Shown here one piece after another: positions 4,055-57,162 of a stretch of DNA of 64,000 nt. Location of the stretch: contig CAMUML010000004.1 of assembly GCA_947089855.1 (NCBI GenBank), forward strand, positions 1 to 64,000, read 5' to 3'. The stretch is from an uncultured Eubacterium sp. GTDB lineage: Bacteria; Bacillota; Clostridia; Lachnospirales; Lachnospiraceae. The notes under the pieces were generated by a model. It saw nothing but the letters and a program-made list of their open reading frames with translations, was not told the origin of the DNA and did no database searches. Made by a program: the position numbers and the translations under genes. The stretch's first letter is position 1. The number at the start of each line of letters is the position of its first letter.

Positions 4055-4229
4055 GTTACTATTCACAGCCAATTTGCTCTTGACAAATATTCTAAGTTAT
4101 GAGGCTGTAAATAGTAACATTCGCAGGCTCATGGAAAGAATTTGCCTTGCAAATTGGAGCCTGCTCACTCCTGAATCAGCTTGGCAGCCACCTGGACAGC
4201 GGGGTGTTCAGGTGGCTGTGAATAGCAAC
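4055..4229 (+). mobile_element. Miniature structured element, family A copy 1 (175 bp, 8-bp target duplication)
   Basis: Begins GTTACTATTCAC and ends GTGAATAGCAAC. Both sides carry the 8-bp direct repeat AAAACTTT (4047-4054 and 4230-4237), a target-site duplication. Internal pairing: 4055-4070 with 4103-4118, GCAGGCTC 4123-4130 with 4157-4164, and CAGCCACCTG 4185-4194 with 4209-4218. The core CTCACTCCTGAATCA (4164-4178) is shared with family B elements. It has no real ORF. It lies in the leader region of the ATPase gene. Confidence 0.9.
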
Positions 4230-4254
4230 AAAACTTTCAGATAATTATAAACGA

Positions 4255-4276
4255 ACCCTTGCTGGTTTGCAAGGGT
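4255..4276 (-). terminator. Probable rho-independent terminator of the GH26 gene
   Basis: A perfect 8-bp stem, ACCCTTGC/GCAAGGGT, with a 6-nt loop, 15 bp past the GH26 stop codon. It is followed on the minus strand by a T-rich but interrupted tail, so strength is moderate. Confidence 0.6.
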
Positions 4277-4291
4277 CCGTACTATGTGCTT

Positions 4292-7200
4292 CTATTTTTT
4301 TACTTTGGTTATCTTGCCAGATGCACTGCAGTAATATTGTTTCTTTCCTGCTTTCACCCACTGTTTGACTGCAACTGCACCTGATTTTTTTGCATAATAT
4401 TTTGCACCTGCCACGGTAAAAAGCTTGTTGGCAACAAGTTCGCCAGATGCCTTGGCATATACTTTATTGCCGGATGCCGTAAAAAAGAACCCGGATTTTG
4501 CCACTGCGCCGGAACTTTTTGCAAAGTACCGCTTTCCTTTGGAAACAAACACTTTGTTTGTGACCAGTTCCCCGTTTTTCCTTGCATATACCTGATTGCC
4601 ATACGAGGTTTTGAAAAATCCTTTTTTGGCAAGGGCGCAGTTTTGCTTCATATAGTATTTTTTACCTGCTACGGTAATGACTTTGTCTGATACAAGTGCC
4701 CCGTCTTTAGAAGCATAGACAATACTGCCTTTTGGCGTTGTACAAAATTCATTTTTCGCTATTGCACCCGTTTCTTTTGCAAAATACTTTGCACCCGCTA
4801 CCTGGATCATTTCTTTTTGCGCCACAATACCAGTTTCTTTTACATAATAGGTGGTACCGTCTGCTGTATCTACAAATTCGGATTTACGCTTTTTCCCCTG
4901 CGCATCCGTAATATACTTGTTCCCATCCGGCGCTTCGACAATCGCATTTTTGATCACCTGGCCATCTGCCCCGGCAAACGTTCCGTCCGTGTTTTCTTTT
5001 GCCGCTTTGACCGTCTGGTTTTTCACCGTTTCGGATGTACTGCCAGGCCCTGCCGGCTCCTGCGTGCCGCTGCTGCCCGGCTCTTGTGTACTGCTGCCTG
5101 GTGACTGTGTGCTGCCGCCTGGCGTCTGCGTACTGCCGCCTGGTGACTGTGTGCTGCTGCCGCCTGGATTTTGCGTACTGCTGCCTGGTGACTGTGTGTT
5201 GCCTGGATTCTGCGTACTGCTGCCTGGTGACTGTGTACTGCCTGGATTTTGCGTGCTGCTGCCTGGATTCTGCGTACTGCTGCCTGGCGCCTGTGTACTG
5301 CCTGGATTTTGCGTGCTGCCGCCTGGCGTCTGCGTACTGTCTCCTGGCTTTTGGGTGCTGTCCCCTGGTTTTTGGGTTTCGTCGTTTTCTGCTGCAATTT
5401 CAAAAACCGGTTCCGTACTATCTGTTGTTACCGCTTTTATATCGTCGTAATATAAAACCCCTTCCAGTGTGCTGTCGGCATCTGCAAATGACGCATCCAG
5501 GGCATTCATCCATAGCCCAAGCCCTGTCAGCCCTGCCGCTGCCTGGCTGTCCAGCTTTGAACCGTTGCCTTTATGTACAAACGTACAAAACGGCAATGTT
5601 ACCTGCAAAGGCTGTTTTGCATTTTTGTAATCATCATAGTCATTTAAATATGCTTCGTATGCATCGTTTCCGATTTTTACCTGTATGACCGTCTTCTGGT
5701 TTTTCCCATCAGGCTTTACCCACAGGCGCAGGGCATTGCATCCTGACCAGTCGGCGGTTTTTGCAATTTCCGTACCCACGTACCCGCCTTTTTTTAAGGT
5801 AAATGCAAATTTCATGGCATATTTGCCCTCTGTGCTGTGTACCGCATCCGACAGGGTAACATTTAGTTGGGAATTGCTGCTTTTGTTAATCTGCCATTTG
5901 CTTGCAAGCAGGCTGTCACGGCCAAGATAGGATTCAAAATCGTCTACGGACAGCGGATCTTCCACTGGTTCTTTGATGTTAATAATAAACCCAAGTTCCT
6001 GTAATTTTTGTCCCCCTGCATACAACGCCAGCAAGCCATCCGGTTCCGGCGTAAATTCCGCCAGCTGCTGTGCCGTCAGTTCGGCCCGGTAGATGCGCCC
6101 CTGCGTTTTTTCTGCCTGCAATGTTACGCTTTCCCCATTTGCACCGGTAAGCACAAAGGTAACTTCCTCAGAAGTATCTTTGGTCAACCTGGCTGTGATC
6201 TGTACTGCCTCTGTCAGCCTGCTGCCCTCTGGAGGGGAAATGAAATACCCATCTAAGGCATTTTCATCCGCAACGCTTACAGATGGCGGCGTAATAGATG
6301 CATGTAAAACCGTTTTTTGCGTATCTGCAAATATACTGCGTTTATCATTATAAAACCGGATAAACCCGTCCAGCATCTCATGCCCATAGAGCGAGCCATC
6401 TGCATTCTGTTTTACTACATATGGTGTATAATAACCTGCCGAACTGGAATAATTTGACCAAAGCATAAAATAACAGCAATTGTATTCCGGTTTTGAGGCA
6501 AGCTCTAAAATCTCGCAGTACCAATCTTTCCGTGGATTCCCTTTTGCCAGCAGTGCAATGTTCCCATTTGCAATGCCGGTTTCTGTTATCGCAAATAACT
6601 TATTATGTTTTTGTGCAAAACTGCTTGTCAGCTCTATCGTACGCTTTAAATCTTCCTGAAAGGTATAGGATGCATCTGCGGACGGGACAGAATCGTAAGA
6701 ATCAAAACCAACCATATCTACATAGCCATCGCCCGGATAGCGTTCTTCATATTCCGCTTCCGTGCCTGCTTCCGTCCCAGGCCCATAGACATAAATGAAA
6801 TTATGTACGCCTTTTTCATCCCGCAGGTATTCTACCGTATATTTAAATACACTTTTATACGTTTCCGGCGTGCAGGCATTGCCCCACCAGAACCAGCCGC
6901 CGGTATTTTCATGCAGCGGGCGGAACAGGATGGTTCCGTTAACCAGCCCGGCATATTCCGCTACCATATCCAGGTATGCTGTATATGCTTCGTTATATTT
7001 TAAGCCTGGCAGCAGGTTTTTCATACATTCGCCGCCATCTGTTTTATAGGAATCTGCGGTGCTGTAGTCAAACTGGTCATATGTTTTTTCAGACTGCACC
7101 CCTTCCCTGCGTTTTGCAAAAGCAAAATTCGGCATATGCGCAGAAAGCGTCATCAGCGCACCCTCTTCTATGGATTTATTGGAAAATCCGGCCGCTGCCT

Positions 7201-9394
7201 GAATGTTTTGCTCTGTTTCACTGCCGCTCCAATTCATTTCGCCTGGATAGCGGTTTTCATATTTATCCTTAAACCCTACAAATAAATTCCCGCAGTCAAG
7301 GCCGTCAATGGCCGATAGCGAACCTGTGACATCTTTGGTATCGGAATTGGTAAGCCCTGCATAGCCGGCTTTTAATACCGTATCTTCCATATGCCCAAAA
7401 ACAACCGCATCCGATTCCCCAACCGCTTTCAAATACTGGTATGCCTTTTGGGTATCTGCATTGGCGTTGCCATCCACCAGTTTCACCGCACTGGCATATG
7501 GATACGTACTTCCGTTTACCGTCAAGGCATCTGCCCCTGTGGAAAGGTTGGTTTGGCTGGATACTTTTACGGTAGAGTCCACATATAACTCCTCTTTCCA
7601 CAACTTAATATGGTCAAAATAGACCGTCCCCGCAAAGTCCGTTTCATTTCCCATTACTACAATGGAAAATTTCTGCGGGTGGACACGCTCCGTATTTGCT
7701 TCCGTCAGCTGGAACGTAAACGTCGCTTTTTTAAAACCATCCCCAGCATCGGTTGTAATAACCGCACTATCTGCAATCCCATTCATCTGGTCTTGGAAAA
7801 TCTTTTGCGAATTGTCGTTGCCGTCCGTTTCTGCGACCGGTTTTAAAATTAGCGTACCTTTTGTCATATCTGACGGATTGTAATAAAAATCAAAACTGAG
7901 CTTATTATAACCTTCAAAACGGTAACCGCCGTCCGCCTCGGTACAGATACCGGCATTCTGCCAGCCCTTGTCAGCAACGGCACGGTAATCCAGGTCCAGT
8001 GCCAGCCGCCCGCCTGCCGCATCATGCGATACGTCCTGCGTTACCCCATCACTCAGCCAGCCGCTATCGCTTTTCCAGGTATCCAGGCCATCGGTAAAAT
8101 CATACTGTCCTTTGACTGCCTGTGCCTCGGCTTTTTGAAAGGTAATATTATCAATATAAATATCCTTTTTGATTGCCTGGTCTTCTACTTTAAATATAAT
8201 TTCCATGGCAGACGGCCTGGCCTCTGCCGCGGCACTTTCATTAACCTTTACTTTGCATGTTTTTTTCATCCAGCCGTTTCCGGCATCCACTGCACCTTCT
8301 GTAACGGAACATTCGTTATTTTCAAATATATCTTTATTATCTGCCTGCGCGCTAACGCCGACGCTGATACCGTCCGGTGCATCCGAAGCCAGATAGTACA
8401 GATCCATTGACATCTGGTTATAAGCTGAAAAATCCAGCCCTTCCTTTGCCTGGTAGCAAGCCCCTACCCCTGGCCAGGTTCCGGTAATGCCGCTGTAATC
8501 CAACCCTACCTTAAGCCTTTGGCCGTCGCTGTCCCAGGACACCTCCCCTGTGGCGCCTGACCAGCCGTCACGTAATGTCCAGCCGTCCGCACCTGTTTCA
8601 AACTCCCATTTTTGAGGGATACCCCCCCCCGGGTTTTCCGTGCTGCCACTGCCATCGCCTGGATTTTCCGTATCGCTGCCACCGCCCGGATTTTCGGTGC
8701 TGCCGCCATCGCCCGGGTTTCCTGGCGTATCTGTACTGCCAGCCTTTAACAGTTTGATATTGTCAAAATAAACACAGCCGTTATAATCCGTCTGCTGTCC
8801 TACAAATGCAATAATCAGCGATTTCGCCGCATCCTGCGTACTGGTAAGCGCAAATTCACAGGTTTTCTTTTTCCAGCCGTCCTCAAGCTCGGTAACCCCT
8901 TCGCTGCCGGTTACTTGCAACGTCCCTTCCCCTTCCGGAACAATACTGCCGTAGCTATCGCCAGCCTGGGCGGCGATCTGTAGGGAAATATCCCCTTTTG
9001 ACATCGACTGGCTGCAATAATAAAAGTCAAAGGACAGCCTGCCTGCATCGGCATAGCTTATGTTTGACATATCTGGCAGGTGTATGGCAGTTTTTGACCA
9101 TCCTTCCTCCGATTGGCTGCTGTTGTCAAAAGACAGCTTTAGCCTGCCGTCCCCGTCTACTTGTTCGTGCCCTACCGTTACATTTTCTTTGACATCGCTC
9201 CAGCCTTCATTCCATTCCCAGCCTTGTGCATCGGAACTAAAATCCCATACGTGCAATTCTGACACATCTGCCCTGGATACATCCTGCCCTGCTTCTGCCG
9301 CATATACTGGCAGTACTGCAGAAGGGACGCCAGTAAAGCAGACCGTTGCTGCCAGCAAATGGGAAATTAGCCTTTTTGCTGTTTTTTTACTCAT
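4292..9394 (-). CDS. Secreted multidomain GH26 endo-mannanase-type enzyme
   Basis: A 1700-residue secreted glycosidase, expected to cut beta-mannan outside the cell. A signal peptide ends near VYA (residue 32). Three N-terminal beta-sandwich modules resembling carbohydrate-binding domains follow (about 45-215, 260-420, 428-600), the first two joined by a Gly/Pro/Glu-rich linker. The GH26 catalytic domain spans about 605-1020, with the acid/base Glu in FRPLHENTGGWFWWG near 827 and the nucleophile Glu in ITETG near 939. A fourth binding-like module lies at about 1150-1320. Then comes a low-complexity linker of STQNPGS-type repeats (about 1331-1454) and roughly eight 20-25 residue aromatic repeats of the cell-wall-binding kind (KYYAKKSGAVA) to the end. 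AAGGAGG precedes the ATG. A run of nine G at codons near 256 sits in the first linker. Surface retention through the C-terminal repeats is inferred. Confidence 0.88.
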   Translation of the reverse strand: MSKKTAKRLISHLLAATVCFTGVPSAVLPVYAAEAGQDVSRADVSELHVWDFSSDAQGWEWNEGWSDVKENVTVGHEQVDGDGRLKLSFDNSSQSEEGWSKTAIHLPDMSNISYADAGRLSFDFYYCSQSMSKGDISLQIAAQAGDSYGSIVPEGEGTLQVTGSEGVTELEDGWKKKTCEFALTSTQDAAKSLIIAFVGQQTDYNGCVYFDNIKLLKAGSTDTPGNPGDGGSTENPGGGSDTENPGDGSGSTENPGGGIPQKWEFETGADGWTLRDGWSGATGEVSWDSDGQRLKVGLDYSGITGTWPGVGACYQAKEGLDFSAYNQMSMDLYYLASDAPDGISVGVSAQADNKDIFENNECSVTEGAVDAGNGWMKKTCKVKVNESAAAEARPSAMEIIFKVEDQAIKKDIYIDNITFQKAEAQAVKGQYDFTDGLDTWKSDSGWLSDGVTQDVSHDAAGGRLALDLDYRAVADKGWQNAGICTEADGGYRFEGYNKLSFDFYYNPSDMTKGTLILKPVAETDGNDNSQKIFQDQMNGIADSAVITTDAGDGFKKATFTFQLTEANTERVHPQKFSIVVMGNETDFAGTVYFDHIKLWKEELYVDSTVKVSSQTNLSTGADALTVNGSTYPYASAVKLVDGNANADTQKAYQYLKAVGESDAVVFGHMEDTVLKAGYAGLTNSDTKDVTGSLSAIDGLDCGNLFVGFKDKYENRYPGEMNWSGSETEQNIQAAAGFSNKSIEEGALMTLSAHMPNFAFAKRREGVQSEKTYDQFDYSTADSYKTDGGECMKNLLPGLKYNEAYTAYLDMVAEYAGLVNGTILFRPLHENTGGWFWWGNACTPETYKSVFKYTVEYLRDEKGVHNFIYVYGPGTEAGTEAEYEERYPGDGYVDMVGFDSYDSVPSADASYTFQEDLKRTIELTSSFAQKHNKLFAITETGIANGNIALLAKGNPRKDWYCEILELASKPEYNCCYFMLWSNYSSSAGYYTPYVVKQNADGSLYGHEMLDGFIRFYNDKRSIFADTQKTVLHASITPPSVSVADENALDGYFISPPEGSRLTEAVQITARLTKDTSEEVTFVLTGANGESVTLQAEKTQGRIYRAELTAQQLAEFTPEPDGLLALYAGGQKLQELGFIINIKEPVEDPLSVDDFESYLGRDSLLASKWQINKSSNSQLNVTLSDAVHSTEGKYAMKFAFTLKKGGYVGTEIAKTADWSGCNALRLWVKPDGKNQKTVIQVKIGNDAYEAYLNDYDDYKNAKQPLQVTLPFCTFVHKGNGSKLDSQAAAGLTGLGLWMNALDASFADADSTLEGVLYYDDIKAVTTDSTEPVFEIAAENDETQKPGDSTQKPGDSTQTPGGSTQNPGSTQAPGSSTQNPGSSTQNPGSTQSPGSSTQNPGNTQSPGSSTQNPGGSSTQSPGGSTQTPGGSTQSPGSSTQEPGSSGTQEPAGPGSTSETVKNQTVKAAKENTDGTFAGADGQVIKNAIVEAPDGNKYITDAQGKKRKSEFVDTADGTTYYVKETGIVAQKEMIQVAGAKYFAKETGAIAKNEFCTTPKGSIVYASKDGALVSDKVITVAGKKYYMKQNCALAKKGFFKTSYGNQVYARKNGELVTNKVFVSKGKRYFAKSSGAVAKSGFFFTASGNKVYAKASGELVANKLFTVAGAKYYAKKSGAVAVKQWVKAGKKQYYCSASGKITKVKK

Positions 9395-9440
9395 TATTTT
9401 TCCTCCTTTTAATTATTTCCGCATTAAATTAGCTGGCTTA

Positions 9441-9469
9441 ATTTTACTTTAAAAGCTATAGTATGTCAA
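9441..9469 (-). promoter_or_regulatory. Sigma-A promoter of the GH26 gene
   Basis: Minus-strand TTGACA (9464-9469), a 17-bp spacer and TAAAAT (9441-9446), placing transcription start about 40 bp upstream of the ATG at 9394. The rest of 9470-9690 is AT-rich with no gene seen. Confidence 0.75.
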
Positions 9470-9691
9470 TTATTACCTAATTTTTAGGAGAAATTTTCAT
9501 ATTATGCACAATTTATATGATTTGTTTTCTGGTATTCTTTCCTTATTTTGTGCATATTTACTTAATTTTTTGATTAATTTTAGCTTAGATAGCAACGCAA
9601 CTGGACGCAGCAGCGGGTACCGTAGATGAGGGTTGAAGAAAAATAAGATCATCTTTAGAATGTTTTTATTTTTGTAGCGGTGCGGATGCCG

Positions 9692-9734
9692 GATAATGGG
9701 GCGGTGGGCTGGTGCAGCCCACTACCCCATTATC
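9692..9734. repeat. 19-bp inverted repeat overlapping a stop codon
   Basis: 9692-9710 pairs with 9716-9734 around a 5-nt loop, with two G-T wobbles. It overlaps the stop codon of the gene ending at 9730. No T-run follows on the minus strand, so it may protect the 3' end of the message rather than act as a classical terminator. Confidence 0.6.
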
Positions 9735-10428
9735 TGGCTGGTTTCTGCGGGCTTTGCAAAATATTGGCTGGATACTGCTCCAGCAGATAGGATTTCAGTG
9801 TTTTCCAGGCACGGAGCCCTTTCTTATCTGCCGCAAAAAATTCATTCCCTTTTACCTCTTTATAAGGGACGTATGTATGCTCTCCATTTGTAGGTACGAT
9901 TTTATCTACGCATGGCCCATAGCAAAATATTGGTAGAATGACCCCTTCCTTATATAGCCGGTAGGCACTGCACCCTGTATCTGCATCTACTGCTTTTTGT
10001 ACCGCAAACACCAGGTATTCCCTGCCTGCCTTCATTTTATTTGTAAACCCAAGCTCCGCCGACGCCGGTTCTTCCCTTAACACAAGGGCCCAGCTGTCTG
10101 CAAAAAGGGCGATCTCCTGCCCTTCCTGAATGCCTTCCCCTTTCCATACTTTCCGGACGCGTACCTTCTGGCTGCCTGGATAGCCGGTGTATTCCATATC
10201 CCCCTGTGCTTCCACACATAAAATATATGGGCAGCCTGGGAGGGCGCGTTTTAGCTGCCTGCATTCATTTGCCGCTAATTTTCCAGGAAGTTCCGCCACA
10301 TATAGCTGGTCCATAAATTGCCCCTGGTTTGTAATATCCGTATAACTGCCCCGTTTTACTATTCCAAAAACAGCCGCCGCTGCTACTGCAAGCAGCAGTA
10401 GGCCATATCCAAATGTCCACTTTTTCAC
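9730..10428 (-). CDS. Membrane-anchored or secreted protein of unknown function, last gene of ABC operon
   Basis: A 232-residue protein with one N-terminal hydrophobic segment (about residues 5-23, LLLLAVAAAAVFGIV), either a signal anchor or an uncleaved leader, and an extracytoplasmic remainder. No known domain is recognised. Residues 85-115 (VRVRKVWKGEG then IALFAD) look like a beta-barrel strand pair. Its start overlaps the end of the ABC ATPase gene by 4 nt, so it is translationally coupled and probably works with that transporter, for example as an extracellular accessory or immunity-like subunit. That role is inferred from position only. Confidence 0.7.
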   Translation of the reverse strand: MKKWTFGYGLLLLAVAAAAVFGIVKRGSYTDITNQGQFMDQLYVAELPGKLAANECRQLKRALPGCPYILCVEAQGDMEYTGYPGSQKVRVRKVWKGEGIQEGQEIALFADSWALVLREEPASAELGFTNKMKAGREYLVFAVQKAVDADTGCSAYRLYKEGVILPIFCYGPCVDKIVPTNGEHTYVPYKEVKGNEFFAADKKGLRAWKTLKSYLLEQYPANILQSPQKPAR

Positions 10429-11072
10429 TCTGCCTGCCCCTCCTGCCTATAAATACGCCCCTTTTCCATCCGGTACAGGCAATCTGCCAATACCCGCATA
10501 TCCTCTTTATTATGGCTTGCGGCCAGTACCAGCGCCCCTCGTTCTTTTTCTTCCAAGACCAGCCTGCGGACCATGTCCACACCTTCTTCGTCCAACGCAT
10601 TGGTAGGCTCGTCCAGGACCAGTACATCCGGCTGTTCCATAACCGCCTGTGCTATGGCAAGGCGCTGCTTCATGCCAAGGGAATATTTCCGGTAGCTGCG
10701 TTTATCCTGCGGATCCAGCCCCACACGCTCCAGCGCCTGGCAGATTTCTTCTTTCCCGATTTTTTTTCGCAGCCCGGCCAGATAGGACAGATTTTCAAAC
10801 CCGGTCAAATTTGGGTATAGCTGCGCATGTTCCAACACAATGCCAAGCCCCGGCAGCACGGCAAACGCTTCCCGCAGCTTTTTGCCGTTAAAATATACCG
10901 CCCCTTTATCTACCGCCATCAATCCGGAAAGGGCGCGGAACAGCATGGTCTTGCCGGATCCGTTCCTTCCTATAAACCCATAAATCCGGCCGCTTTCCAT
11001 GTGCAGGCTGATGTCATCTAAAATCAACCTTTTTTTCACCGTTTTACTGATATGTTCTGCCACCAGCTCCAT
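10425..11072 (-). CDS. ABC transporter ATP-binding protein
   Basis: 215 residues from the ATG at 11072. That start has GAGGAGG about 10 nt upstream; the longer frame from 11111 would overlap the permease gene. Walker A is GRNGSGKT, the ABC signature is YSLGMKQR, Walker B is VLVLDEPTNALD and the switch His is ASHNK. The order and the single ATPase domain fit ABC-2 type exporters (CcmA-like). It lies 4 bp after the permease gene at 11077 and overlaps the next gene by 4 nt. It would power the two hydrophobic proteins encoded upstream. Confidence 0.9.
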   Translation of the reverse strand: MELVAEHISKTVKKRLILDDISLHMESGRIYGFIGRNGSGKTMLFRALSGLMAVDKGAVYFNGKKLREAFAVLPGLGIVLEHAQLYPNLTGFENLSYLAGLRKKIGKEEICQALERVGLDPQDKRSYRKYSLGMKQRLAIAQAVMEQPDVLVLDEPTNALDEEGVDMVRRLVLEEKERGALVLAASHNKEDMRVLADCLYRMEKGRIYRQEGQAE

Positions 11073-11076
11073 TCCC

Positions 11077-11898
11077 CTATGCCTCCTCTGCATCCGAAAT
11101 GATAAAATCATGCTTTTTCACAGCCACAGCCCCTGCTGCCAGGACTGCCGCACAGCACGCTGCATACAAAAGCAGCGTCCCAGTATACCCTATCCCCAGG
11201 GATGCGTCCAATAATCCTTGTAGATCCTTTTGCCCTGCGCCGCCTTTGTGCCATCCCAATACCAAATGTGCGGCAGGGTTAACCGCAACCAGCTTCTTTG
11301 CCGCCATTGACTGGCCTGCATACCGTTTGCATTCCAACAGCGCAATACAAACCGCCTGCACCCCAAAAGCCACAGAAAAAGCCGTACTGCTGCCAACCCT
11401 GGTTGCTGCCAAGTTGATGCCCATACTGATGGTATACGTCCAAAAAAAATAAATCAGGATATGGTACCAGGCCAAAGAAAACCCTGCATCGTCAAACTGG
11501 ATACGGCAGCGCCATGCCGAAACCGCTGTAGCGGCACCCATTAATAGGACCTGGTAGGCAGCCGCATATATGCCAACTGCTGCCGCTTCCCCCAGATACC
11601 AGGCGGTCCGGTTTGGGCAGCGTGAAAAAATATACACGCTCGCAGTACAAAACCTCCGGTAAAAATAAATCCCGAAATAGAATTCAAACAAGTACGACGG
11701 CAGCAGGCGCATAGCAAACGACACAAGCTCCGCCAAGTTCCCCGAAAGCACAAACCGCCCCCTGGAACCGCTTAACTGCAGCACCATTTCAGAAAAGGTG
11801 CATCCCCCGCCATAAGGGTTCACCCATAAAAAGCTTAGGAAAATACCTCCCAAAACAGCCGCTGCCGCTAAAAACAGCCAGTTTCTATATTTTGTCAT
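11077..11898 (-). CDS. ABC-2 type transporter membrane subunit 1
   Basis: A 273-residue hydrophobic protein with about six predicted membrane segments: one at residues 7-27, the others spread between about 70 and 265, the last at about 240-262. Sequence similarity to a named family could not be assigned by eye, but size and location between an ABC ATPase and another hydrophobic protein support a permease. It overlaps the preceding gene by 4 nt (ATGA). An extracytoplasmic loop at about residues 28-60 precedes the second membrane segment, as in ABC-2 permeases of peptide exporters. Substrate is unknown. Confidence 0.75.
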   Translation of the reverse strand: MTKYRNWLFLAAAAVLGGIFLSFLWVNPYGGGCTFSEMVLQLSGSRGRFVLSGNLAELVSFAMRLLPSYLFEFYFGIYFYRRFCTASVYIFSRCPNRTAWYLGEAAAVGIYAAAYQVLLMGAATAVSAWRCRIQFDDAGFSLAWYHILIYFFWTYTISMGINLAATRVGSSTAFSVAFGVQAVCIALLECKRYAGQSMAAKKLVAVNPAAHLVLGWHKGGAGQKDLQGLLDASLGIGYTGTLLLYAACCAAVLAAGAVAVKKHDFIISDAEEA

Positions 11899-12716: not shown

Positions 12717-12750
12717 GATGGGGTTCTCCTTTGTTAAGATCTAGTTTTTG

Positions 12751-13584: not shown

Positions 13585-13636
13585 ACAGCCCCTCCTTTTT
13601 TTCAAATATATAGGTATACAATATAATTCTATCTGT

Positions 13637-13703: not shown

Positions 13704-13969
13704 GTTACTATTCACGGGCAATGTCATTAACTTAGGCTCTTTCCGGCTGAAATTCAGCTATACAAAGCCTTGAATTATCTGGGGTTTTCTAATACTGATC
13801 AAGGGCCAGATGGCTTAAGTTAATGACATTGATTCACGGGCCAGGAATGCGCATAAACTGCGCATTCCGTGAGAACATGATTCAGGAGTGAGGGGCGGTT
13901 TTGCGAAGCAAACTTCCAATATCGCCCCGAAAGGTTACCATGAGCGGCCCACAGGCCGTGAATAGTAAC
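13704..13969 (+). mobile_element. Miniature structured element, family B copy 1 (144 bp, interrupted by a second element)
   Basis: Ends GTTACTATTCAC (13704-13715) and GTGAATAGTAAC (13958-13969) are flanked by the 8-bp duplication AGCCTTGT (13696-13703 and 13970-13977). Removing the insert at 13719-13831 and one copy of its short duplication restores a 144-bp element that matches the copy at 17460-17603 in reverse orientation. Visible hairpins are GGAATGCGC/GCGCATTCC, the GGGGCG-stem with inner TTTGC/GCAAA, and the right end pairing with an internal GTTACCAT. Confidence 0.9.
13719..13831. mobile_element. Nested miniature element C (113 bp) inside the family B element
   Basis: Terminal inverted repeat CAATGTCATTAACTTA at both ends, interrupting the left arm of the family B element. 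The target sequence ATTCACGGG is repeated on both sides (13710-13718 and 13832-13840); the duplication can be read as 9 or 10 bp because of a shared C. It contains no ORF. The 9-10 bp duplication would suit an IS4-like parent, which is an inference; no parent is present in the window. Confidence 0.85.
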
Positions 13970-17459: not shown

Positions 17460-17603
17460 GTTACTATTCACGGCCTGGGGGCCGCTCATAGTAACCTTTC
17501 GGGGCGATATTAGAAGTTTGCTTCGCAAAATCGCCCCTCACTCCTGAATCATGTTCTCACGGAATGCGCAGTTTATGCGCATTCCTGGCCCGTGAATAGT
17601 AAC
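17460..17603 (-). mobile_element. Miniature structured element, family B copy 2 (144 bp, 8-bp target duplication)
   Basis: Both ends are GTTACTATTCAC/GTGAATAGTAAC, with the perfect flanking duplication GCCGCTCT (17452-17459 and 17604-17611). It is the intact form of the element interrupted at 13704-13969, in the opposite orientation. Its insertion cuts the gene remnant at 17604-17826. Confidence 0.92.
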
Positions 17604-40529: not shown

Positions 40530-40704
40530 GTTGTTATTCACAGCCAATTTGCTCTTAACAAACATTCTAAGTTATGAAGCTGTAAATAGTAACATTCGCA
40601 GGCTCATGGAAAGAATTTGCCTTGCAAATTGGAGCCTGCCCACTCCTGAATCAGCTTGGCAGCCACCTGGACAGCAGGGTGTTCAGGTGGCTGTAAATAG
40701 TAAC
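40530..40704 (+). mobile_element. Miniature structured element, family A copy 2 (175 bp)
   Basis: Same length and hairpin plan as 4055-4229, with about a dozen base changes, including GTTGTTATTCAC at the left end and CTGTAAATAGTAAC at the right. No matching 8-bp flanks are seen (TAAATATA left, CGCTTTTT right), so it is older or has recombined. Confidence 0.88.
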
Positions 40705-42183: not shown

Positions 42184-42288
42184 GTGAAAACATGATTCAG
42201 GAGTGAGGGGCGATTTTGCGAAGCAAACTTCCAATATCGCCCCGAATTGCTACTGTGAGCGGCCCCCCCCCAGGCCGTGAATAGTAAC
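42184..42288 (+). mobile_element. Miniature structured element, family B copy 3 (left end missing)
   Basis: Matches the right 105 bp of family B, from GTGAAAACATGATTCAGG to GTGAATAGTAAC. The first about 40 bp, including the left terminal repeat, are absent. It carries a run of nine C (42263-42271). Confidence 0.82.
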
Positions 42289-49523: not shown

Positions 49524-49550
49524 TGGCTGCCCCTCCCTTGCATCAAATGA

Positions 49551-49859
49551 TTAGATACGGTGCATTTTTTCAAAGATTTCGGCTTTCTGGCACTTAATGC
49601 TGACGCCGATGCCCTGGCCGATTTCCGCAAGGTCTTTGGAACATTGGGAAAAAGTTACTTCGGCCCCATTCATTTCCACGATCATCATCATATGGAAAAA
49701 CCCTTGTACGATCGTTTGCGAAATATCCAGCACATTGATCTGATGCTCCGATAAGTAGGTACATACTTTTGCAATAATACCTACCGTATCTTTGCCCAGT
49801 ACCGTAATAATTGTTTTGTCGGATGCTTTTTCTTCGGTTGCTACTGATTCTTGTTCCAT
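49551..49859 (-). CDS. ACT domain protein (UPF0237)
   Basis: 102 residues starting at the ATG at 49859 after AGAGGGATAAC; the open frame to 50009 runs into the neighbouring MBL gene and is not used. One ACT domain occupies nearly all the protein (IITVLGKDTVGIIAKVCTYL, then VLDISQTIVQGFFHMMMIV). ACT domains bind amino acids or similar small molecules. It is paired with the PFL protein, a widespread arrangement. Confidence 0.92.
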   Translation of the reverse strand: MEQESVATEEKASDKTIITVLGKDTVGIIAKVCTYLSEHQINVLDISQTIVQGFFHMMMIVEMNGAEVTFSQCSKDLAEIGQGIGVSIKCQKAEIFEKMHRI

Positions 49860-49884
49860 GTTATCCCTCTTTCTGGCCAAACAT

Positions 49885-50682
49885 TCAGGCACAAAACATA
49901 TGTGTCGGTTCGCTGCGCTTTGCGACATAAATCGGGAAGTCGTCCCCTTTATATGGGTTTTCCCCCATTGCCACTTCCAAGCGGACAGTTTCGTATGCCA
50001 GCTGCGCATAATTATTTTCCTTGCTCAGATGCCCCAAAATAGCTACCCGGAACCGGTCATGCAAAAGCTGCCCGAGCAGCTGGCCTGACCGGACATTGGA
50101 TAAATGCCCCTGGTCGCCAAGGATGCGCTGCTTTAACGGATACGGATATTTTCCTGTCTGGAGCATCCGTACATCATGGTTTGCTTCTAACAATAATACA
50201 TCCAACCCCTGCAGTTTGTCTACTAAAGAATGGTCAAATTTTCCCAAATCTGTAATTACCCCTGCTTTATGGCCCCCATGTTCCAAAATATAGGCCACCG
50301 GATCCGCCGCGTCATGGGAAACGGAAACCGGATGCACGGCCATTTCCCCTATGGCAAACTCCTCGCCTGGCCGGATCCGGTGCAGCAGGCTTTGGTCAAT
50401 TTTTCCAACCGTTTTCGCCAAGCACACGGCATCCAACGTGCCTTGCGTACCATATATTGGCAGGCCATAACGCCGGGCCAAGACACCTAGCCCAGCGATA
50501 TGGTCGATATGTTCATGCGTAACTAATATGGCTTTCATTTCACTTGTCTTTAACCCAACCGAATTTAAGCCTGCCTCAATCCGTTTCCCACTGATGCCCG
50601 CATCGATCAGCAAATGGGAACTGCTGGTCCCCACACAAATGCAGTTTCCGCTGCTGCCGCTTGCTATGCTGCATAATTCCAT
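49885..50682 (-). CDS. MBL-fold metallo-hydrolase, YycJ/WalJ-like
   Basis: 265 residues. The metallo-beta-lactamase fold metal motif VTHEHIDHIAG lies near residue 57, further ligands are in HPVSVSHDAADP and ITDLGK, and the last His is in LGHLSKENN. The opening MELCSIASGSSGNCI matches the YycJ/WalJ group, thought to act in DNA repair or cell-envelope control. It is cytosolic. It is 26 bp after the CoaE-FtsA-like gene and 25 bp before the ACT gene, so part of the polA operon. Confidence 0.9.
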   Translation of the reverse strand: MELCSIASGSSGNCICVGTSSSHLLIDAGISGKRIEAGLNSVGLKTSEMKAILVTHEHIDHIAGLGVLARRYGLPIYGTQGTLDAVCLAKTVGKIDQSLLHRIRPGEEFAIGEMAVHPVSVSHDAADPVAYILEHGGHKAGVITDLGKFDHSLVDKLQGLDVLLLEANHDVRMLQTGKYPYPLKQRILGDQGHLSNVRSGQLLGQLLHDRFRVAILGHLSKENNYAQLAYETVRLEVAMGENPYKGDDFPIYVAKRSEPTHMFCA

Positions 50683-50708
50683 TTTTTCATCCTCTTTGCC
50701 GCCTTGTC

Positions 50709-53678
50709 CTAATTGTCTTTCCAGTAAATATCCACTTTATCGCCGGCATGCAAAAACTGTGTATATTGTGCCGGTTCCCCATTGACTGTTGTAATAAGCA
50801 TACGGCCGCGTGCCTGCGACAAGTCAAACTGGATATAATCAAAAATGTCGACGAATATGTATTCCTTCTTTTTATTGTTAAATACGACTGGTTCGCCATT
50901 TACCGTAATCTGGAATGCCTGGCTGTCCGGCTTTTGCACATCCGGTTTCGGGGCCGCATCAAAAACCCTGGCTTCTGCATCCGGCTTGCCCGTTTTTGCC
51001 GCACTGGCCGGTACCCCTGCCCCTGGTACGCCTGCCCCATCTACGGTCTGGCCTGGCAATGCCGGGCGGTCTGCAGCGCTTATCCGTTTTGTGCCCCCTG
51101 TTTGCGCCGCTTCTTTTGCAGTATCCTGTGTTCCGCCTGCTTCGGCCTGTGGTAGCGCCGGGGCATCCAATGCGGCATCCGGCAACGCCTGTCCGATCAC
51201 TTTAACGCTCAGTGCACCGCTGCCCTGCAGATCCGGCACCCTGCCTTTTTTCGGCGCATCCGGATACGCATCCTGCGGCGTAGAGCGGTAAGTAACCACT
51301 TTCCAGTCTACACTGAAATTCTCATAAACAAGCGCCTGCAAGCTTTCCACCCGGTTATTGACCAGTATATCTGCATCCGGATCCAGCTCTACATCCATAA
51401 ATTCGGCAAGCTGGCTGACGGTATAAAAGCTGCGGGTTGCAATTGCATCGTTTTCCTGAATTTCATAAGTCGGAGGCTCCAAGATACCGTTTACCTCCAC
51501 ATAGCGCGGGCAGGTGATCAGCTTCCCGTTTACCTCAAATGTAATCGTAGAACTGGTATACTCTTCCAGCTGGCCGACCAGGTAATGTGCTTCCCTGCCT
51601 GCCGTAGACGGTTCGATCGTAATCACACTGTTTGGCTCAATCGGCGTATTGATCGAAGCCGGCCGGTCGTTCATCCGTATAATTGCCGCTTCGCCTGCTT
51701 CCCCGCGTACGATACGCGGCCTTCCATTCACGGTAAAATTAATCTCCCGCCCACGTTTCGGGAAAAGCTGGTCATTTGGGAAACCAGCCTGGATAGCTGC
51801 ATCTACAATCGTCAGTTTGCTGTTATCATACAGTTTTAGCCGTTCCCCGTTAAAACGCACCATAATAAAATTATTTTTCTGTTCGTAATAATTTAGGCAA
51901 ATACCGATTGGCGTAACCAGAAGCGGGTCTTTTTCAATATCTTCCTGCAAAAAGGTAACTTCTTTTAATACTTCCGCGCCACGCAGCGCCACACGCTCTT
52001 GCGGCAGGCCCAATTTTTCAGCCAGCATCGTATCAAAGCCGTGGATCTTGCCGCCCCCGCCGACGATAAAAGTTGCGCTTACGGTCTGGTCGCCGTTTAA
52101 TTCTTTTATTTTATCTGCAATATCCGTCGTCATCTTATCGACCAGCGGGTCGGTCAGCTTCCATACCTCCTCTGCGGAAATGGTATGTTTTAAGCTCATA
52201 ATATCTTCAAATTCAATTTCATCGGATGTTGCGGAAGCCAGCTTCATACTTTCCGCCATACGGAAATCCACCAGATAATGCTGCACCAGTGTTTCGGTCA
52301 GCTCGTCCCCTGCAAATGGGATCATGCCGTAGGCAATAATGCTGCCGTCCCTGGTCAGAGAAATATCCGATGTGCCTGCACCGACATCTACCAGCGCAAT
52401 ATTCAGCATACGGAAATTCTCCGGGATTGCCACGTCGATGGCCGCAATCGGCTCCAACGTCATATTGGCTACCGTAAGGCCAGCAAAACCGACCGCCATA
52501 TACAATCCGTCGACCACGTCTTCCGGCAGGAAGGTTACAATGATCTTTTCCGAAATCTTATCCGCCTTATGGCTTTCCAGGTTGGAAAAAATCTCATCAT
52601 TGATATAATAGCGGATCACCGAGTAGCCGACACAGTAAAATTTGAATTTTGTATCATTTTCTTCTTTCAGCTGCTGCGCCGCTTTGTCCACGCCAAGCAA
52701 ATCCAGCGTATGGACATGCTCGCCTGTTACAACGGTTTCTTCCGGAAATTCATAAGAGACTTCTGTTGTTACTGTTTTTAATACACGTCCTGCTGCCGCA
52801 ATGCACACTTCGGTCAATTCCTGGCCAATCTGGTCTTCCAGCTTTTCCTTTACGAACGAAATCGTACGGCCCACGCGGCCAATATCATGGATCTGCCCGT
52901 CCAGCATGGCCCGTGTTTCATGTTCCATTGAATACTGCGCAACGACGATAAATTCTTTCTCTTTTTTATATCCGACGGTACCTACGACATTGCGTGTGCC
53001 AATATCCAGCCCGAATACGTACTGCTGCCCATCCTCCTTTGTGCTTTCTTCCTGCGCGACTTCTTTTTCCATCTGCTTCTCTCCTTTTTCATTTAAAAGC
53101 TGCGCCATCTGCAGGTAAACCTGCGCAACGGAGCCATTATTATCAATAATGACCTGGCAGTGCCTGCGGAAATCGCTGTCTGAAAGCTGCGCTGCGAAAA
53201 TCTGCCCGATCTTTTCATCCGAATAGCCACGGGTTTCCACCAGGCGCTGCCTGCGGTTTTCCTCGGTCACATACACATACCACAATTCATCACAGATTTG
53301 GCCGTACCCATCTTCAATCAACAATGCCGCCTCAAGCACAACATAATCTGTTGAACCGCTGCGGCGCTCTTTTTCCACTTCCTGCAGGATATATTCTTTG
53401 ACTGCCGGGTGGACAATGCTGTTTAGCCGCTCACGTTTCGTTTCATCTGCAAAGATTACGTCCGCCAGGCGCCTTCTGTTGATCCTGCCGTTACTAAGCC
53501 AGATTTTTTCTTTTGCAAATTCCTTCTGCAGCCTTACGTAACAGTCATAACCTGGCTCCATTATATCATGGGCAACTTCGTCCGCAATCAGCGTCCGTAC
53601 CCTGTAATTTTCCCTCAGATAGGCAAGTATCGTGGATTTTCCAGCACCGACCCCGCCCGTGATCCCTATAAACTTCAT
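50709..53678 (-). CDS. coaE: Dephospho-CoA kinase fused to an FtsA-like ASKHA ATPase
   Basis: 989 residues in one frame. Residues 1-200 are a full dephospho-CoA kinase: P-loop GITGGVGAGKST, the DEVAH motif, and YVYVTEENRRQRLVE of the lid. From about 203 onward the protein is an FtsA/Hsp70-type ATPase: GLDIGTRNV (phosphate 1), ALVDVGAGTSDISL (phosphate 2) and FIVGGGGKIHG (adenosine). An Ala/Pro/Gly-rich linker (about 800-905) leads to a C-terminal ubiquitin-like fold (FQITVNGEPVVFNN, then YTQFLHAGDKVDIYW). At the junction an ATG at 53072 has AAGGAG 8 nt upstream, so the FtsA-like part (787 residues) may also be made separately. The usual state is two neighbouring genes. Confidence 0.85.
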   Translation of the reverse strand: MKFIGITGGVGAGKSTILAYLRENYRVRTLIADEVAHDIMEPGYDCYVRLQKEFAKEKIWLSNGRINRRRLADVIFADETKRERLNSIVHPAVKEYILQEVEKERRSGSTDYVVLEAALLIEDGYGQICDELWYVYVTEENRRQRLVETRGYSDEKIGQIFAAQLSDSDFRRHCQVIIDNNGSVAQVYLQMAQLLNEKGEKQMEKEVAQEESTKEDGQQYVFGLDIGTRNVVGTVGYKKEKEFIVVAQYSMEHETRAMLDGQIHDIGRVGRTISFVKEKLEDQIGQELTEVCIAAAGRVLKTVTTEVSYEFPEETVVTGEHVHTLDLLGVDKAAQQLKEENDTKFKFYCVGYSVIRYYINDEIFSNLESHKADKISEKIIVTFLPEDVVDGLYMAVGFAGLTVANMTLEPIAAIDVAIPENFRMLNIALVDVGAGTSDISLTRDGSIIAYGMIPFAGDELTETLVQHYLVDFRMAESMKLASATSDEIEFEDIMSLKHTISAEEVWKLTDPLVDKMTTDIADKIKELNGDQTVSATFIVGGGGKIHGFDTMLAEKLGLPQERVALRGAEVLKEVTFLQEDIEKDPLLVTPIGICLNYYEQKNNFIMVRFNGERLKLYDNSKLTIVDAAIQAGFPNDQLFPKRGREINFTVNGRPRIVRGEAGEAAIIRMNDRPASINTPIEPNSVITIEPSTAGREAHYLVGQLEEYTSSTITFEVNGKLITCPRYVEVNGILEPPTYEIQENDAIATRSFYTVSQLAEFMDVELDPDADILVNNRVESLQALVYENFSVDWKVVTYRSTPQDAYPDAPKKGRVPDLQGSGALSVKVIGQALPDAALDAPALPQAEAGGTQDTAKEAAQTGGTKRISAADRPALPGQTVDGAGVPGAGVPASAAKTGKPDAEARVFDAAPKPDVQKPDSQAFQITVNGEPVVFNNKKKEYIFVDIFDYIQFDLSQARGRMLITTVNGEPAQYTQFLHAGDKVDIYWKDN
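53072..53083 (-). promoter_or_regulatory. Internal ribosome binding site and start at the CoaE/FtsA-like junction
   Basis: AAGGAGAGAAGCAG directly precedes an in-frame ATG (53070-53072) that opens MEKEVAQEESTKEDG. The quality is as good as that of separate genes in this operon, so a second product is plausible. Confidence 0.65.
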
Positions 53679-53724
53679 CCCGTACACCCTGACCGTTTCT
53701 TCTCTTCAAATTTAATGCCGCTTC

Positions 53725-56367
53725 TTATTTTGCCTCATACCAGTCCGCCCCGGTATGCATATCGACCTCCAATGCCACGGACAAGTCCGCCGCGTGCTGC
53801 ATCTCTTCTTCCAGCAGTTTGGATACCTGTTCCAGTTCTTCCTTGTACGCCTCAATCAGCAGCTCGTCATGCACCTGCAAGACCAAACGGGAACGCAGCC
53901 CTTCCGCCAACAGCCTGTCATGCACGCGGTTCATCGCAATTTTAATAATATCCGCAGCCGTACCCTGGATCGGGGAATTCATAGCAACCCGCTCCCCAAA
54001 CGAACGCTGCATATAGTTGCTGGATTTTAATTCCGGCACCGGGCGGATACGGCCAAACATCGAGACTGCCGTTCCATTTTTCTTTGCGTCCGCAACCATA
54101 CGGTCCAAAAATGCCTTTACGCCTGGATACGTATCAAAATACTGTTCAATATAGTCCTGTGCTTCTTTACGCGTAATGCTTAGATCCTGGCTTAACCCAA
54201 ACGAGCTGATCCCATACACGATCCCAAAATTTACCGCTTTCGCATTCCTGCGCTGTAAGTCCGTCACCTCGTCAAACGGGATATGGAATACCTGGGACGC
54301 TGTCATGCGGTGAATATCCTGCGCTTCCTTGTATGCCTGGATCAAGTTTTCATCGCCGGACATATGGGCCAGCACACGCAGCTCGATCTGCGAATAGTCT
54401 GCATCCAAAAACACGCAGCCTTCCTTTGGCCGGAACACTTTGCGGATCAAGCGGCCAAGCTCCATACGTATCGGGATATTCTGCAGGTTTGGCTCGGCGC
54501 TGCTTAAACGCCCGGTAGCAGTGATCGTCTGGTGGAACGTTGTATGGATCCTTTTATCCGGCCCGATAAATGCCGCCAGCCCATCCGCATAGGTCGATTT
54601 TAGTTTGGCAAGCTGGCGGTATTCTAAGATCTGCGCTACCAGCGGATACTCCGGTGCAAGCTTGTCCAATACATCCGCTGCGGTCGAATACCCAGTTTTT
54701 GTCTTTTTGCCATACGGCATCTTTAGCTTTTCAAATAAAATAACGCCAAGCTGTTTTGGGGAATTAATGTTAAACGTCTCTCCAGCCCCCTGGTAAATCT
54801 GCTGCTCTAATTCCACAATCCGGCCTTGAAGCTGCTCCCCGTAAATTTCCAGTTCCTGCGCTTCTATCCCGATGCCTTCTTTTTCCATATCGGAAAGCGT
54901 ATACACTAATGGCATTTCGATTGTATCAAACAGCCCCCGCATCCCGGTTTCTTCCAACTTCTGCTTTAGGACGTCCATCGCGCGGTATGCCACATAGGCA
55001 GGAAAGCAGGCTGCCTGTAAAAATTCTTCCGGTTTTTGCCCCAATGCCTGGCGGTACGGCAGTTTTTCTATCAAGTCTGCCCTGGACGGCACGGTTTCCC
55101 CCAAATAATCTTTGGCTACCTCTTCATACGCATACTCATTTTTCAAAGGGTTCAAAAGATACGCTGCGATTTTTATATCAAATACCTGTGCCTGCGCTGG
55201 AATATCCATAAATTTTAACGCCCGCTTTACCGAAAACGATGCGGTAGGCACCCCGCTGGTAAATACCCGCGCCAGCTGGCCCGTGAGATACGCAGGCGTC
55301 AAAAACCCCTCCACCTGGATAAAATATACGGTTTCCCCGTACTGCGCTGCGACGCCGTAGATTTCCCCCTGTTCCTCGACCAGCTGTACAGCCGCTTTTT
55401 TTGCCTGGCGCAGTTTTGCAAACACCTGCTCTGCCTGTGCCAGGTCCGTTACCCGTTCAAACGCCGCAGCCGCCTGGCTGGCCTGCGGCGCAGCTGGCTG
55501 GCTTTGGAACCTTGCCAGCATCTGTTTAAAATCCAGCCGCCTGCAAAGCTCATACGCCTGCGGCGTATACAGGTTGGAAAGCTTGGCCCCCGCAAGGTCA
55601 TAGGCAATGTCCGCATGGATTTCGATCGTTACCAGCTGTTTGGAAAACTGCGCCTTCCCGTAATGTTCCCGGAACGCCTCACGTACTTTGGTTTTTGGCA
55701 TCTCATCGATATGTGCATATGCATTTTCAATGCTGCCATACTTGCTGATCATCTTGACCGCCGTCTTTTCCCCAATGCCCGGCACACCCGGCACATTATC
55801 CGAGGTATCGCCCATCAGCGCCTTGACGTCGATAAATTCCTGCGGTGTCACATGGTAGGTTTCCTCAACCTGTTTTGCATAATAATCTTCGATCACCGTA
55901 CCCGTCCGCTTGGTCTTTGGAATCCGTATTTTAATATGTTCGGATGCAAGCTGGAGCAAGTCGCGGTCGCCCGATACAACCGAAACATCCAGCCCTTGCG
56001 CTTCTGCAGATTTTGCGATTGTGCCAAGCAGGTCGTCCGCTTCATAGCCCGCTTTTTCCACAACCGTAACGCCCATAGCCGAAAGCATTTCCTTCATAAG
56101 CGGCACCTGCTCCCGTAGTTCTGGTGCCATCGGTTTGCGTGTGCCTTTATATTCCGCATACATCTTATGCCGGAACGTCGGCTCGCTGACATCAAATGCA
56201 GTGGTCAGATAATCCGGCTTTTCTTCTTCCAGGATCTTAAATAAAATATTTAAAAACCCATAAACCGCATTTGTATGCAGCCCCTCTGCATTCGTAAGGT
56301 CTGGGATACCGTAAAACGCCCGGTTTAAAATACTGTGCCCGTCAATTAAAACCAGTTTGCCGCCCAT
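53725..56367 (-). CDS. polA: DNA polymerase I
   Basis: 880 residues. A 5' nuclease domain (about 1-290, with DGHSILNRAFYG, GYEADDL and GVPGIGEKTA) is followed by a 3'-5' exonuclease-like domain (about 310-480) that lacks the catalytic DxE motif: the position reads VQLVEEQGEIYG. The polymerase domain (about 490-880) has DADYSQIELRVLAHMSG, RRNAKAVNFGIVYGIS and LQVHDELLIE. So it should have no proofreading, as in other Firmicutes Pol I. GGAGG precedes the ATG. It heads the co-directional group polA, coaE-ftsA-like, MBL, ACT and PFL, after the thioesterase gene. Confidence 0.98.
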   Translation of the reverse strand: MGGKLVLIDGHSILNRAFYGIPDLTNAEGLHTNAVYGFLNILFKILEEEKPDYLTTAFDVSEPTFRHKMYAEYKGTRKPMAPELREQVPLMKEMLSAMGVTVVEKAGYEADDLLGTIAKSAEAQGLDVSVVSGDRDLLQLASEHIKIRIPKTKRTGTVIEDYYAKQVEETYHVTPQEFIDVKALMGDTSDNVPGVPGIGEKTAVKMISKYGSIENAYAHIDEMPKTKVREAFREHYGKAQFSKQLVTIEIHADIAYDLAGAKLSNLYTPQAYELCRRLDFKQMLARFQSQPAAPQASQAAAAFERVTDLAQAEQVFAKLRQAKKAAVQLVEEQGEIYGVAAQYGETVYFIQVEGFLTPAYLTGQLARVFTSGVPTASFSVKRALKFMDIPAQAQVFDIKIAAYLLNPLKNEYAYEEVAKDYLGETVPSRADLIEKLPYRQALGQKPEEFLQAACFPAYVAYRAMDVLKQKLEETGMRGLFDTIEMPLVYTLSDMEKEGIGIEAQELEIYGEQLQGRIVELEQQIYQGAGETFNINSPKQLGVILFEKLKMPYGKKTKTGYSTAADVLDKLAPEYPLVAQILEYRQLAKLKSTYADGLAAFIGPDKRIHTTFHQTITATGRLSSAEPNLQNIPIRMELGRLIRKVFRPKEGCVFLDADYSQIELRVLAHMSGDENLIQAYKEAQDIHRMTASQVFHIPFDEVTDLQRRNAKAVNFGIVYGISSFGLSQDLSITRKEAQDYIEQYFDTYPGVKAFLDRMVADAKKNGTAVSMFGRIRPVPELKSSNYMQRSFGERVAMNSPIQGTAADIIKIAMNRVHDRLLAEGLRSRLVLQVHDELLIEAYKEELEQVSKLLEEEMQHAADLSVALEVDMHTGADWYEAK

Positions 56368-56406
56368 GCATGCCTCCTCTTTTTCCTTCCAATAGCCTAG
56401 CTGTTT

Positions 56407-56895
56407 TTATGGATGTATCATTTCTTCCCCATCTTCGTCATACAGCGTAAAAAACTTCGTATCCAGCTCCGGGTAAGAACGCTTGAGGGAGATCGGCTTG
56501 CCGCTGTTGTTCAAAAAACAGTGCTCACTTTCTGCTAGCGCCCTTAACTCGCCGGTTTCCTTATCCGTAATACGGTAGACAATCTTCATCTTTACGCCGT
56601 TATAATCGATCATGCGCGCTTCGATCACAACCGTATCACGGAAATGCACCATGCTTTTGTATTCGCATTTAATCGAAAGCACCGGGCTGATAATTTCCAT
56701 ATCTTCCATTGCTTTATAGCTAAACCCCATCTGGTCCATCAGGTCCATACGCGCCTCTTCCATCCACCGGATGTAATTGGTATGGTGGATAATACCCATC
56801 TGGTCCGTCTCATAATACTGCGCGGTACGCTCATAAGGGTGGATCTTTATTTTTTCTCCTGTATATGGTTTAATCCTTGTATCTTTTACTGACAT
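56407..56895 (-). CDS. Acyl-CoA thioesterase, 4-hydroxybenzoyl-CoA type hot-dog fold
   Basis: 162 residues. A YbgC/FadM-like thioesterase, hydrolysing acyl-CoA or acyl-ACP in the cytosol. The family motif YYETDQMGIIHHTNYIRWMEEARMD has the catalytic Asp near residue 31. Length matches the family. It is the first gene after the promoter at 56929-56957, 39 bp ahead of polA. Confidence 0.92.
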   Translation of the reverse strand: MSVKDTRIKPYTGEKIKIHPYERTAQYYETDQMGIIHHTNYIRWMEEARMDLMDQMGFSYKAMEDMEIISPVLSIKCEYKSMVHFRDTVVIEARMIDYNGVKMKIVYRITDKETGELRALAESEHCFLNNSGKPISLKRSYPELDTKFFTLYDEDGEEMIHP

Positions 56896-56928
56896 ATAAT
56901 CACCTTCCTGTTCTTATGCACTCTTTTT

Positions 56929-56957
56929 ATTATGCCACAGGGTATGTGTAATTTCAA
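56929..56957 (-). promoter_or_regulatory. Promoter of the thioesterase-polA operon
   Basis: TTGAAA (56952-56957), a 17-bp spacer and CATAAT (56929-56934). A family A element starts 30 bp upstream of the -35. Confidence 0.72.
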
Positions 56958-56987
56958 GATGGTATCCTTTTCAAATTTTGGGCTTTT

Positions 56988-57162
56988 GTTACTATTCACA
57001 GCCAATTTGCTCTTGACAAACATTCTAAGTTATGAGGCTGTAAATAGTAACATTCGCAGGCTCATGAAAAGAATTTGCCTTGCAAATTGGAGCCTGCTCA
57101 CTCCTGAATCAGCTTGGCAGCCGCCTGAACAGCGGGGTGTTCAGGTGGCTGTGAATAGTAAC
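56988..57162 (+). mobile_element. Miniature structured element, family A copy 3 (175 bp, 8-bp target duplication)
   Basis: Perfect 12-bp terminal inverted repeats (GTTACTATTCAC and GTGAATAGTAAC) with the flanking duplication GGGCTTTT (56980-56987 and 57163-57170). It sits between the gatD stop codon (2 bp away) and the thioesterase promoter. Its hairpins may insulate the two minus-strand units. Confidence 0.93.

Follow-up and report, generated by a model that had tools for sequence, protein, structure and literature searches.

What moves the short, hairpin-rich elements that recur in a 64,000-nucleotide stretch of DNA from an uncultured Eubacterium sp. (Lachnospiraceae; GCA_947089855.1, contig CAMUML010000004.1, positions 1-64,000; hereafter the window), and why is their folded shape retained? 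Six of them, three of a family A (175 bp) and three of a family B, contain a common core of 15 nucleotides, exact at five places and with 1 mismatch at one, a number reached by 0 of 100 shuffles. A covariance model of their internal module (hairpin 2, core and hairpin 3) matched these six and nothing else in the window. Together with a further family C, they are in our view probably miniature inverted-repeat transposable elements (MITEs) mobilised in trans by a divergent, ISBst12-like DDE transposase of the IS66 family. Such an enzyme would recognise the 12-bp end GTTACTNTTCAC and close variants of it, and would generate 8-bp target duplications.

Families A and B follow one plan which, read from the + strand copies at 4055 or 17460, runs from the left end through hairpin 1, hairpin 2, the single-stranded core CTCACTCCTGAATCA and hairpin 3 to the right end. 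Hairpin 1 arises by pairing of the left end with its inverted inner copy, and in hairpin 2 an asymmetric internal loop separates an 8-bp stem from an inner stem. In the intact 144-bp family B element (17460..17603, +, duplication GCCGCTCT), hairpin 1 occupies 17460..17495 with the inner inverted end copy ATAGTAAC at 17488-17495, hairpin 2, with its C(TTC)G loop, 17501..17537, the core 17537..17551 and hairpin 3 17561..17585, all on the + strand, followed by the right terminal inverted repeat (17592..17603, -). In the 175-bp family A element at 4055..4229 (+; ends GTTACTATTCAC / GTGAATAGCAAC, duplication AAAACTTT), hairpin 1, closed by the inverted inner end, lies at 4055-4118, hairpin 2 at 4124-4163, the core at 4164-4178 and hairpin 3 at 4185-4218. 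Two more 175-bp family A copies are found at 56988..57162 (+, duplication GGGCTTTT) and at 40530..40704 (+); the latter has diverged ends (GTTGTTATTCAC) and no target duplication, its flanks being TAAATATA and CGCTTTTT. A family B element at 42184..42288 (-) is truncated at its 42184 side and keeps one end (GTGAATAGTAAC, 42277-42288).

An earlier note on this DNA had described these three 175-bp copies, the 144-bp and the truncated copy, the 12-bp inverted ends common to both families, the common hairpin architecture of miniature mobile elements and four perfect 8-bp duplications (AAAACTTT, AGCCTTGT, GCCGCTCT and GGGCTTTT), all of which we found again. It had also taken the copy at 13704 for a second full 144-bp family B element. 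This copy spans 266 bp (13704..13969, -, duplication AGCCTTGT) and harbors a nested second MITE of 113 bp (13719..13831, strand unspecified; ends CAATGTCATTAACTTA, 9-bp duplication ATTCACGGG), so that the copy at 17460 is the only intact B element in the window. A similar 266-bp arrangement occurs at three more loci of the source genome (L007, L135/L216 and L209), each with a different, perfect outer duplication, and thus the composite seems to move as a unit. Nor did family A have to be reversed to be compared with family B, as had been proposed: the 4055 and 17460 copies align end to end on the + strand, and only those at 13704 and 42184 are on the minus strand. The internal GTTACTAT pointed out at that time is indeed present, and can now be identified as the inverted end copy closing hairpin 1.

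The left, inner and right ends agree at position 3 in 29 of 30 elements (one of them, counted apart, in two of the three ends only) and at position 7 in 23 of 30, although the letter at both positions varies between elements. End variants also differ between species. Folded as single-stranded DNA, the 17460 (B) and 4055 (A) elements reach z values of -7.7 and -5.2, both better than 200 of 200 shuffles.

The source genome (4.07 Mb in 101 contigs, 89.7% complete) contains the core at 147 places (at most 1 mismatch), against 0 for a reversed-pattern control. The first 100 of these places were fetched, and in the pieces obtained 103 distinct cores (at most 2 mismatches) yielded 77 two-ended elements, 56 of family B and 21 of family A. 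Perfect duplications (8 of 8 letters) flank 47 of the 77 and 7 more match at 7 of 8, where random pairing of flanks would give 0.5 and 0.2. When elements from this and other species were pooled, 33 of 58 had perfect duplications. Nested insertions duplicate known family A sequence (TTGACAAA at L005, CCTGAACA at L020). With lengths of 144, 160 and 175 bp that leave no room for a transposase gene, 12-bp terminal inverted repeats, target duplications and high copy number, the elements have the hallmarks of MITEs; an autonomous partner with matching ends was not found in the source genome, a draft completed to the extent given above.

That there are two families, as first described, proved right for A and B and incomplete, at least three being present. 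The third, family C, is 160 bp long with ends GTTACTTTTCAC and has the same plan, the core being replaced by another one. The pattern GTTACTNTTCACNH occurs at 38 places, 34 of which read GTTACTTTTCACAC, the form of the family C ends, and 12 pairs of such ends are spaced as in the 160-bp copies; at least three of the pattern places (L267, L275 and L280) belong to other or short elements. One composite (L289) joins a B element to a C element without hairpin 1, and is flanked on both sides by ATGGGATC, the right one differing by one base. In another genome (G160), elements at three places (L412:8372, L417:13310 and L410:3549) combine the same end (GTTACTGTTCACGCC...) with a different interior and represent a further family.

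Strong covariation across species is seen in hairpins 2 and 3. In a module alignment of 29 distinct sequences (out of 42 stretches, 13 degenerate or near-duplicate ones being dropped), 95.5% of 647 stem cells pair, and changes affect both sides in 183 cells and one side in 4. The covariation score is 0.679 against 0.186 in shuffled alignments (0 of 500 reach it) and at most 0.179 when the alignment is slid, in line with the claim that the stems are kept by pairing and not by sequence. For one measure, that of further pair types, 46 of 500 shuffles attained the observed value. Alifold on whole elements (30 of 58 used) gave double changes in 19 of 33 pairs, in agreement with the module. The core is invariant and the internal loop of hairpin 2 is kept over many species. 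The earlier note had staked its reading on three things, further copies in related genomes, covariation of the stems and 8-bp flanks in most other copies, and none of them failed.

The further copies were found by the covariance model and by core searches. In 14 genomes chosen for holding the module, the richest have at least 150, 113, 108, 91 and 67 copies. A class-wide sample placed the module in 5 of 391 genomes, all within the Lachnospiraceae, in a scan that kept the best 10 candidates at most per genome under strict filters and may miss weak copies; the exact core occurs in 3 of 150 genomes of the family, and named carriers among the matches listed are mostly Lachnospiraceae records, the cultured Lachnospiraceae bacterium 3-1 being one carrier. 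The module can go with more than one end sequence, as indicated by one genome (G507) in which seven of the eight listed modules (L353, L356, L358, L360, L362, L364 and L366) lie between quite different ends. Their right ends are of the type TATGAYATCTTRAATGAAATTACAG (read inward), the left hairpin starts with TATGACATCTTGAATC in two and with TATRCATTCTTGAAC in five, and no target duplication was resolved for these seven; the eighth (L349) has GTTAC-like ends. Other modules without GTTAC ends and with intact stems exist (e.g. L100, L109 and L351). In two species of one genus, a module stands at the same place directly before a start codon (L354 and L355), an old copy that is vertically kept. 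Two elements from different genomes (L059:1907-2025 and L139:1246-1363) have the 5' arm of hairpin 3 interrupted by CCTAAAGGACTAGCTTYGCGTCG, which is another small repeat. Carriage by phages or plasmids was considered and rejected: a plasmid search gave no match to the elements, and 31 core matches on viral contigs were, judged by eye, all without hairpin or end context. One element was found on a single unannotated scaffold labelled as phage (L201).

Which transposase could act on these ends? The search suggested in the earlier note led to transposons of other genomes that have matching ends and encode a divergent, ISBst12-like IS66-family transposase. One (L465:1409-3731) has ends GTTACTTTTCACGGGTAGG, with the same 12 letters as family C, and the duplication TATCAATA; matching transposons lie at L453:763-3120 (GCCGGAAT) and L499:615-2598 (GTATTAGA), and the ends of another (L449:3663-6152, without duplication) are exactly GTTACTATTCAC. 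Among 18 transposase loci, which are the stronger matches with fragments uncounted, 11 have a matching end on both sides, 6 on one side and 1 on neither, and several of the one-sided loci stop at a contig end. PF03050 (DDE_Tnp_IS66) was detected in four of five proteins (L434, E 2.5e-22; L447, 1e-15; L453, 1.6e-25; the second gene of L449, 2e-14) and not in the fifth, the N-terminal piece L438. Against the NCBIfam IS66 equivalog NF033517 (cut-off 180 bits), two proteins scored 150.7 and 133.7 bits and the L438 piece gave no match; these scores under the cut-off mark the transposase as a divergent IS66 relative. Under midpoint rooting, seven aligned transposases of 520-590 residues make up one clade (support 1.0) to the exclusion of 28 ordinary IS66 proteins. 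A search for IS66 accessory domains found none (E at most 1) in six small open reading frames of the transposase loci; at some loci, small reading frames do lie ahead of the gene. Ranking IS66 matches by E-value had hidden this clade, which emerged on searching the element-holding genomes; its profile has matches in 72 of 299 family genomes, and among the weak matches many fall in IS66 genes of ordinary size. The module model found nothing significant in 12 of the transposase loci (best E 0.35). Since only the ends are common to both, the MITEs do not simply derive from the transposase elements by deletion. The IS6 family (PF13610), also tried as a partner, had no match in the source genome, and no transposon with these ends was seen at its match loci.

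Judged from these shared ends and duplications, the ISBst12-like transposase probably moves the elements. Several observations weigh against it. The scan for ends tolerated one mismatch to an already degenerate pattern, a permissive setting, and includes some internal chance matches. A perfect 8-bp duplication borders 3 of the 11 two-ended transposons and a 9-bp one borders another, while 6 lack any and the last has its start at a contig end; the 8-bp duplication typical of the ISBst12 group is thus perfect in 3 of the 10 with readable flanks. The profile matches 9 of 20 element-holding genomes, with a near-full-length gene only in G160, G549 and G151, and leaves 11 without a match, including G155 (108 modules) and G157 (91). 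Fragmentary matches (e.g. G057:C38) have no clear ends. In the source genome no intact copy was seen, only a 63-residue remnant (G000:C21), and an end-like relic is found at L210. Although these are incomplete drafts, the genomes without a match may have lost the transposase or depend on an unseen one. That ordinary IS66 elements (TnpC, GTAA ends) do the work instead of this clade is very improbable: they also make 8-bp duplications in the family and begin with GTAAC or GTAAG (L143, L153), two with both ends visible starting with GTAACCGTCAAATAAC and GTAAGCGTCAAATAA, but the end pair of the MITEs occurs in 0 of the 30 best-scoring IS66 loci (flanks of about 1.5 kb), and 7 of 19 element-holding genomes lack any PF03050 match. 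The same ends also border much shorter elements. In 2.16 Mb scanned, seven of 27-79 bp have perfect 8-bp duplications, against 0 in each of 30 shuffled end patterns, and a looser scan added an eighth (27 bp, L059). These solo hairpin-1 elements (27-64 bp) might be taken for independently transposing units, among the smallest DNA transposons, as their perfect duplications and the empty decoys would allow. We consider this unlikely and rank self-mobility of the 27-bp solos second to deletion: the inner and right ends are direct repeats, so that losing the DNA between them leaves a solo hairpin still flanked by the original duplication, like solo long terminal repeats. A 64-bp copy (L017) has the hybrid end that deletion predicts, in which the right-end GTGAATAGTAAC comes after hairpin 1 of family A.

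We suppose that the hairpins are kept as DNA structure, and are less sure of this than of the transposase link; they could act, for example, in extruded or single-stranded form while the DNA is being replicated or transposed. In 88 distinct modules (103 merged), 2,024 pair cells comprise 86 gaps and 1,938 lettered cells, of which 1,818 are Watson-Crick, 27 G-T, 45 A-C and 48 other; a smaller alignment, whose hairpin 3 count left out two family A rows and L040, has 3 G-T and 13 A-C. For comparison, 24 distinct tRNAs show 45 G-T among 532 pairs. The 77 two-ended copies stand in tandem (48), divergent (17) or convergent (4) gene contexts or without a neighbour (8), and tandem copies lie 22 in one orientation and 26 in the other, hence without orientation bias to genes as far as crude calls of open reading frames can tell. 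Near-pure Watson-Crick stems and lack of orientation bias together favour a DNA over an RNA structure, without proving it. The loop of hairpin 2 is C(TNC)G in 72 of the 88 modules, with all four N, and so reads C(GNA)G on the minus strand; triloops of this kind form exceptionally stable DNA hairpins. Some points tell against this interpretation: the tRNA sample mixes unrelated species with the source and related ones, and non-standard pairs may go unmarked by ARAGORN; and the G-T and A-C counts ignore the shared ancestry of modules.

A functional RNA spread by transposition, either as a small RNA or as an element acting in cis within transcripts, in which RNA selection keeps stems and core, is a rather unlikely alternative to DNA structure. 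The strong compensatory change, the core invariant over many species, an RNA fold z of -7.7 and the intact-stem modules without GTTAC ends cited above would all suit it, but one-side changes are rare, A-C exceeds G-T on the modelled strand in both alignments, the copies are not oriented with respect to flanking genes, and Rfam gave 0 matches in the window at gathering thresholds and none on an element at E up to 5 at six loci. Selection on a minus-strand RNA would also raise A-C over G-T, but more of both would then be expected. About equally doubtful is the idea that mutation, through correction of imperfect palindromes by template switching, keeps the stems complementary in the absence of any selected function. 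Nearly all changes being paired and Watson-Crick is what it predicts, and left, inner and right ends do change together; it leaves the invariant core and the kept internal loop of hairpin 2 unexplained. Somewhat less doubtful than either, and still tentative, is the idea that the module is a selected structural cargo acting as folded DNA, independent of any one transposase. The G507 modules between different ends speak for this independence, and the almost exclusively Watson-Crick stems with C(GNA)G triloops on the minus strand for an action as folded DNA.

Some other features of the window deserve mention. A lone degenerate end (GTTGCTATTCACGGCCCAGC, 59521-59532) upstream of an open reading frame (59643-60446) is possibly the relic of a B-like element. 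Positions 1-1635 and 2380-4014 form a perfect direct repeat of 1,635 bp with a spacing of 2,379 bp, which is a recent tandem duplication or an assembly artefact. An array of units of about 21 bp (5067-5365), within a minus-strand open reading frame of 1,700 residues (4292-9394), is a repetitive protein region.

Searches of the open-licence literature on MITEs, IS66 and structured RNA, judged by title and start of abstract, gave no description of these elements, and the end and core strings occurred only in papers titled on human, plant, mouse or viral subjects. The MITEs, probably of an ISBst12-like IS66 system, are thus undescribed in the literature searched, and what is unusual in them is the internal module, whose structure is constrained across species. 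Bacterial MITEs are usually seen as decaying leftovers held together by their ends. A three-hairpin plan kept by compensatory change within one bacterial family, in more than 100 copies per genome, suggests a possible reader of its shape. With a candidate transposase from a little-studied branch of IS66, trans-mobilisation can be tested directly, and the system allows asking whether a MITE gains in transposition or survival from a DNA hairpin.

Among known repeats, repetitive extragenic palindromic (REP) sequences are not known to make target duplications. They are described as palindromes of 20-40 bp tagged at one end (GTAG/CGTC), and resemble the present elements as short hairpins in many copies (PMC3733652). 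BOX of Streptococcus pneumoniae, described among putative MITEs, is likewise a high-copy, modular and stem-rich interspersed repeat; as far as the accessible text goes, it has tandem boxB arrays and relatives only in streptococci, whereas our elements have stems that covary in many species and a transposase group with matching ends (PMC3049150). QMITE2 and other prokaryotic MITEs share with our elements the short length, terminal repeats, direct repeats of 7-9 bp and stable stem-loops; the third, inner end copy and the covarying module set ours apart from MITEs as presented in the available portion of that review, the main text of which mentions neither IS66 nor Lachnospiraceae (PMC10969869). 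A close parallel to the proposed mobility concerns ISDge4 of Deinococcus geothermalis, an IS66 element of the ISBst12 group with ends GTGACTACTCAGCA / GTAACTGCTCAGCA and an 8-bp repeat. The group has a similar end pattern (GTAACTGCTCAG here, GTTACTGTTCAC / GTAACTGTTCAG there) and the same length of direct repeat, and the candidate partner elements, like ISDge4, have one large transposase gene, of 520-590 residues here and 449 in ISDge4, while the window elements differ from it in being gene-less and built on a three-hairpin plan (PMC12898284).

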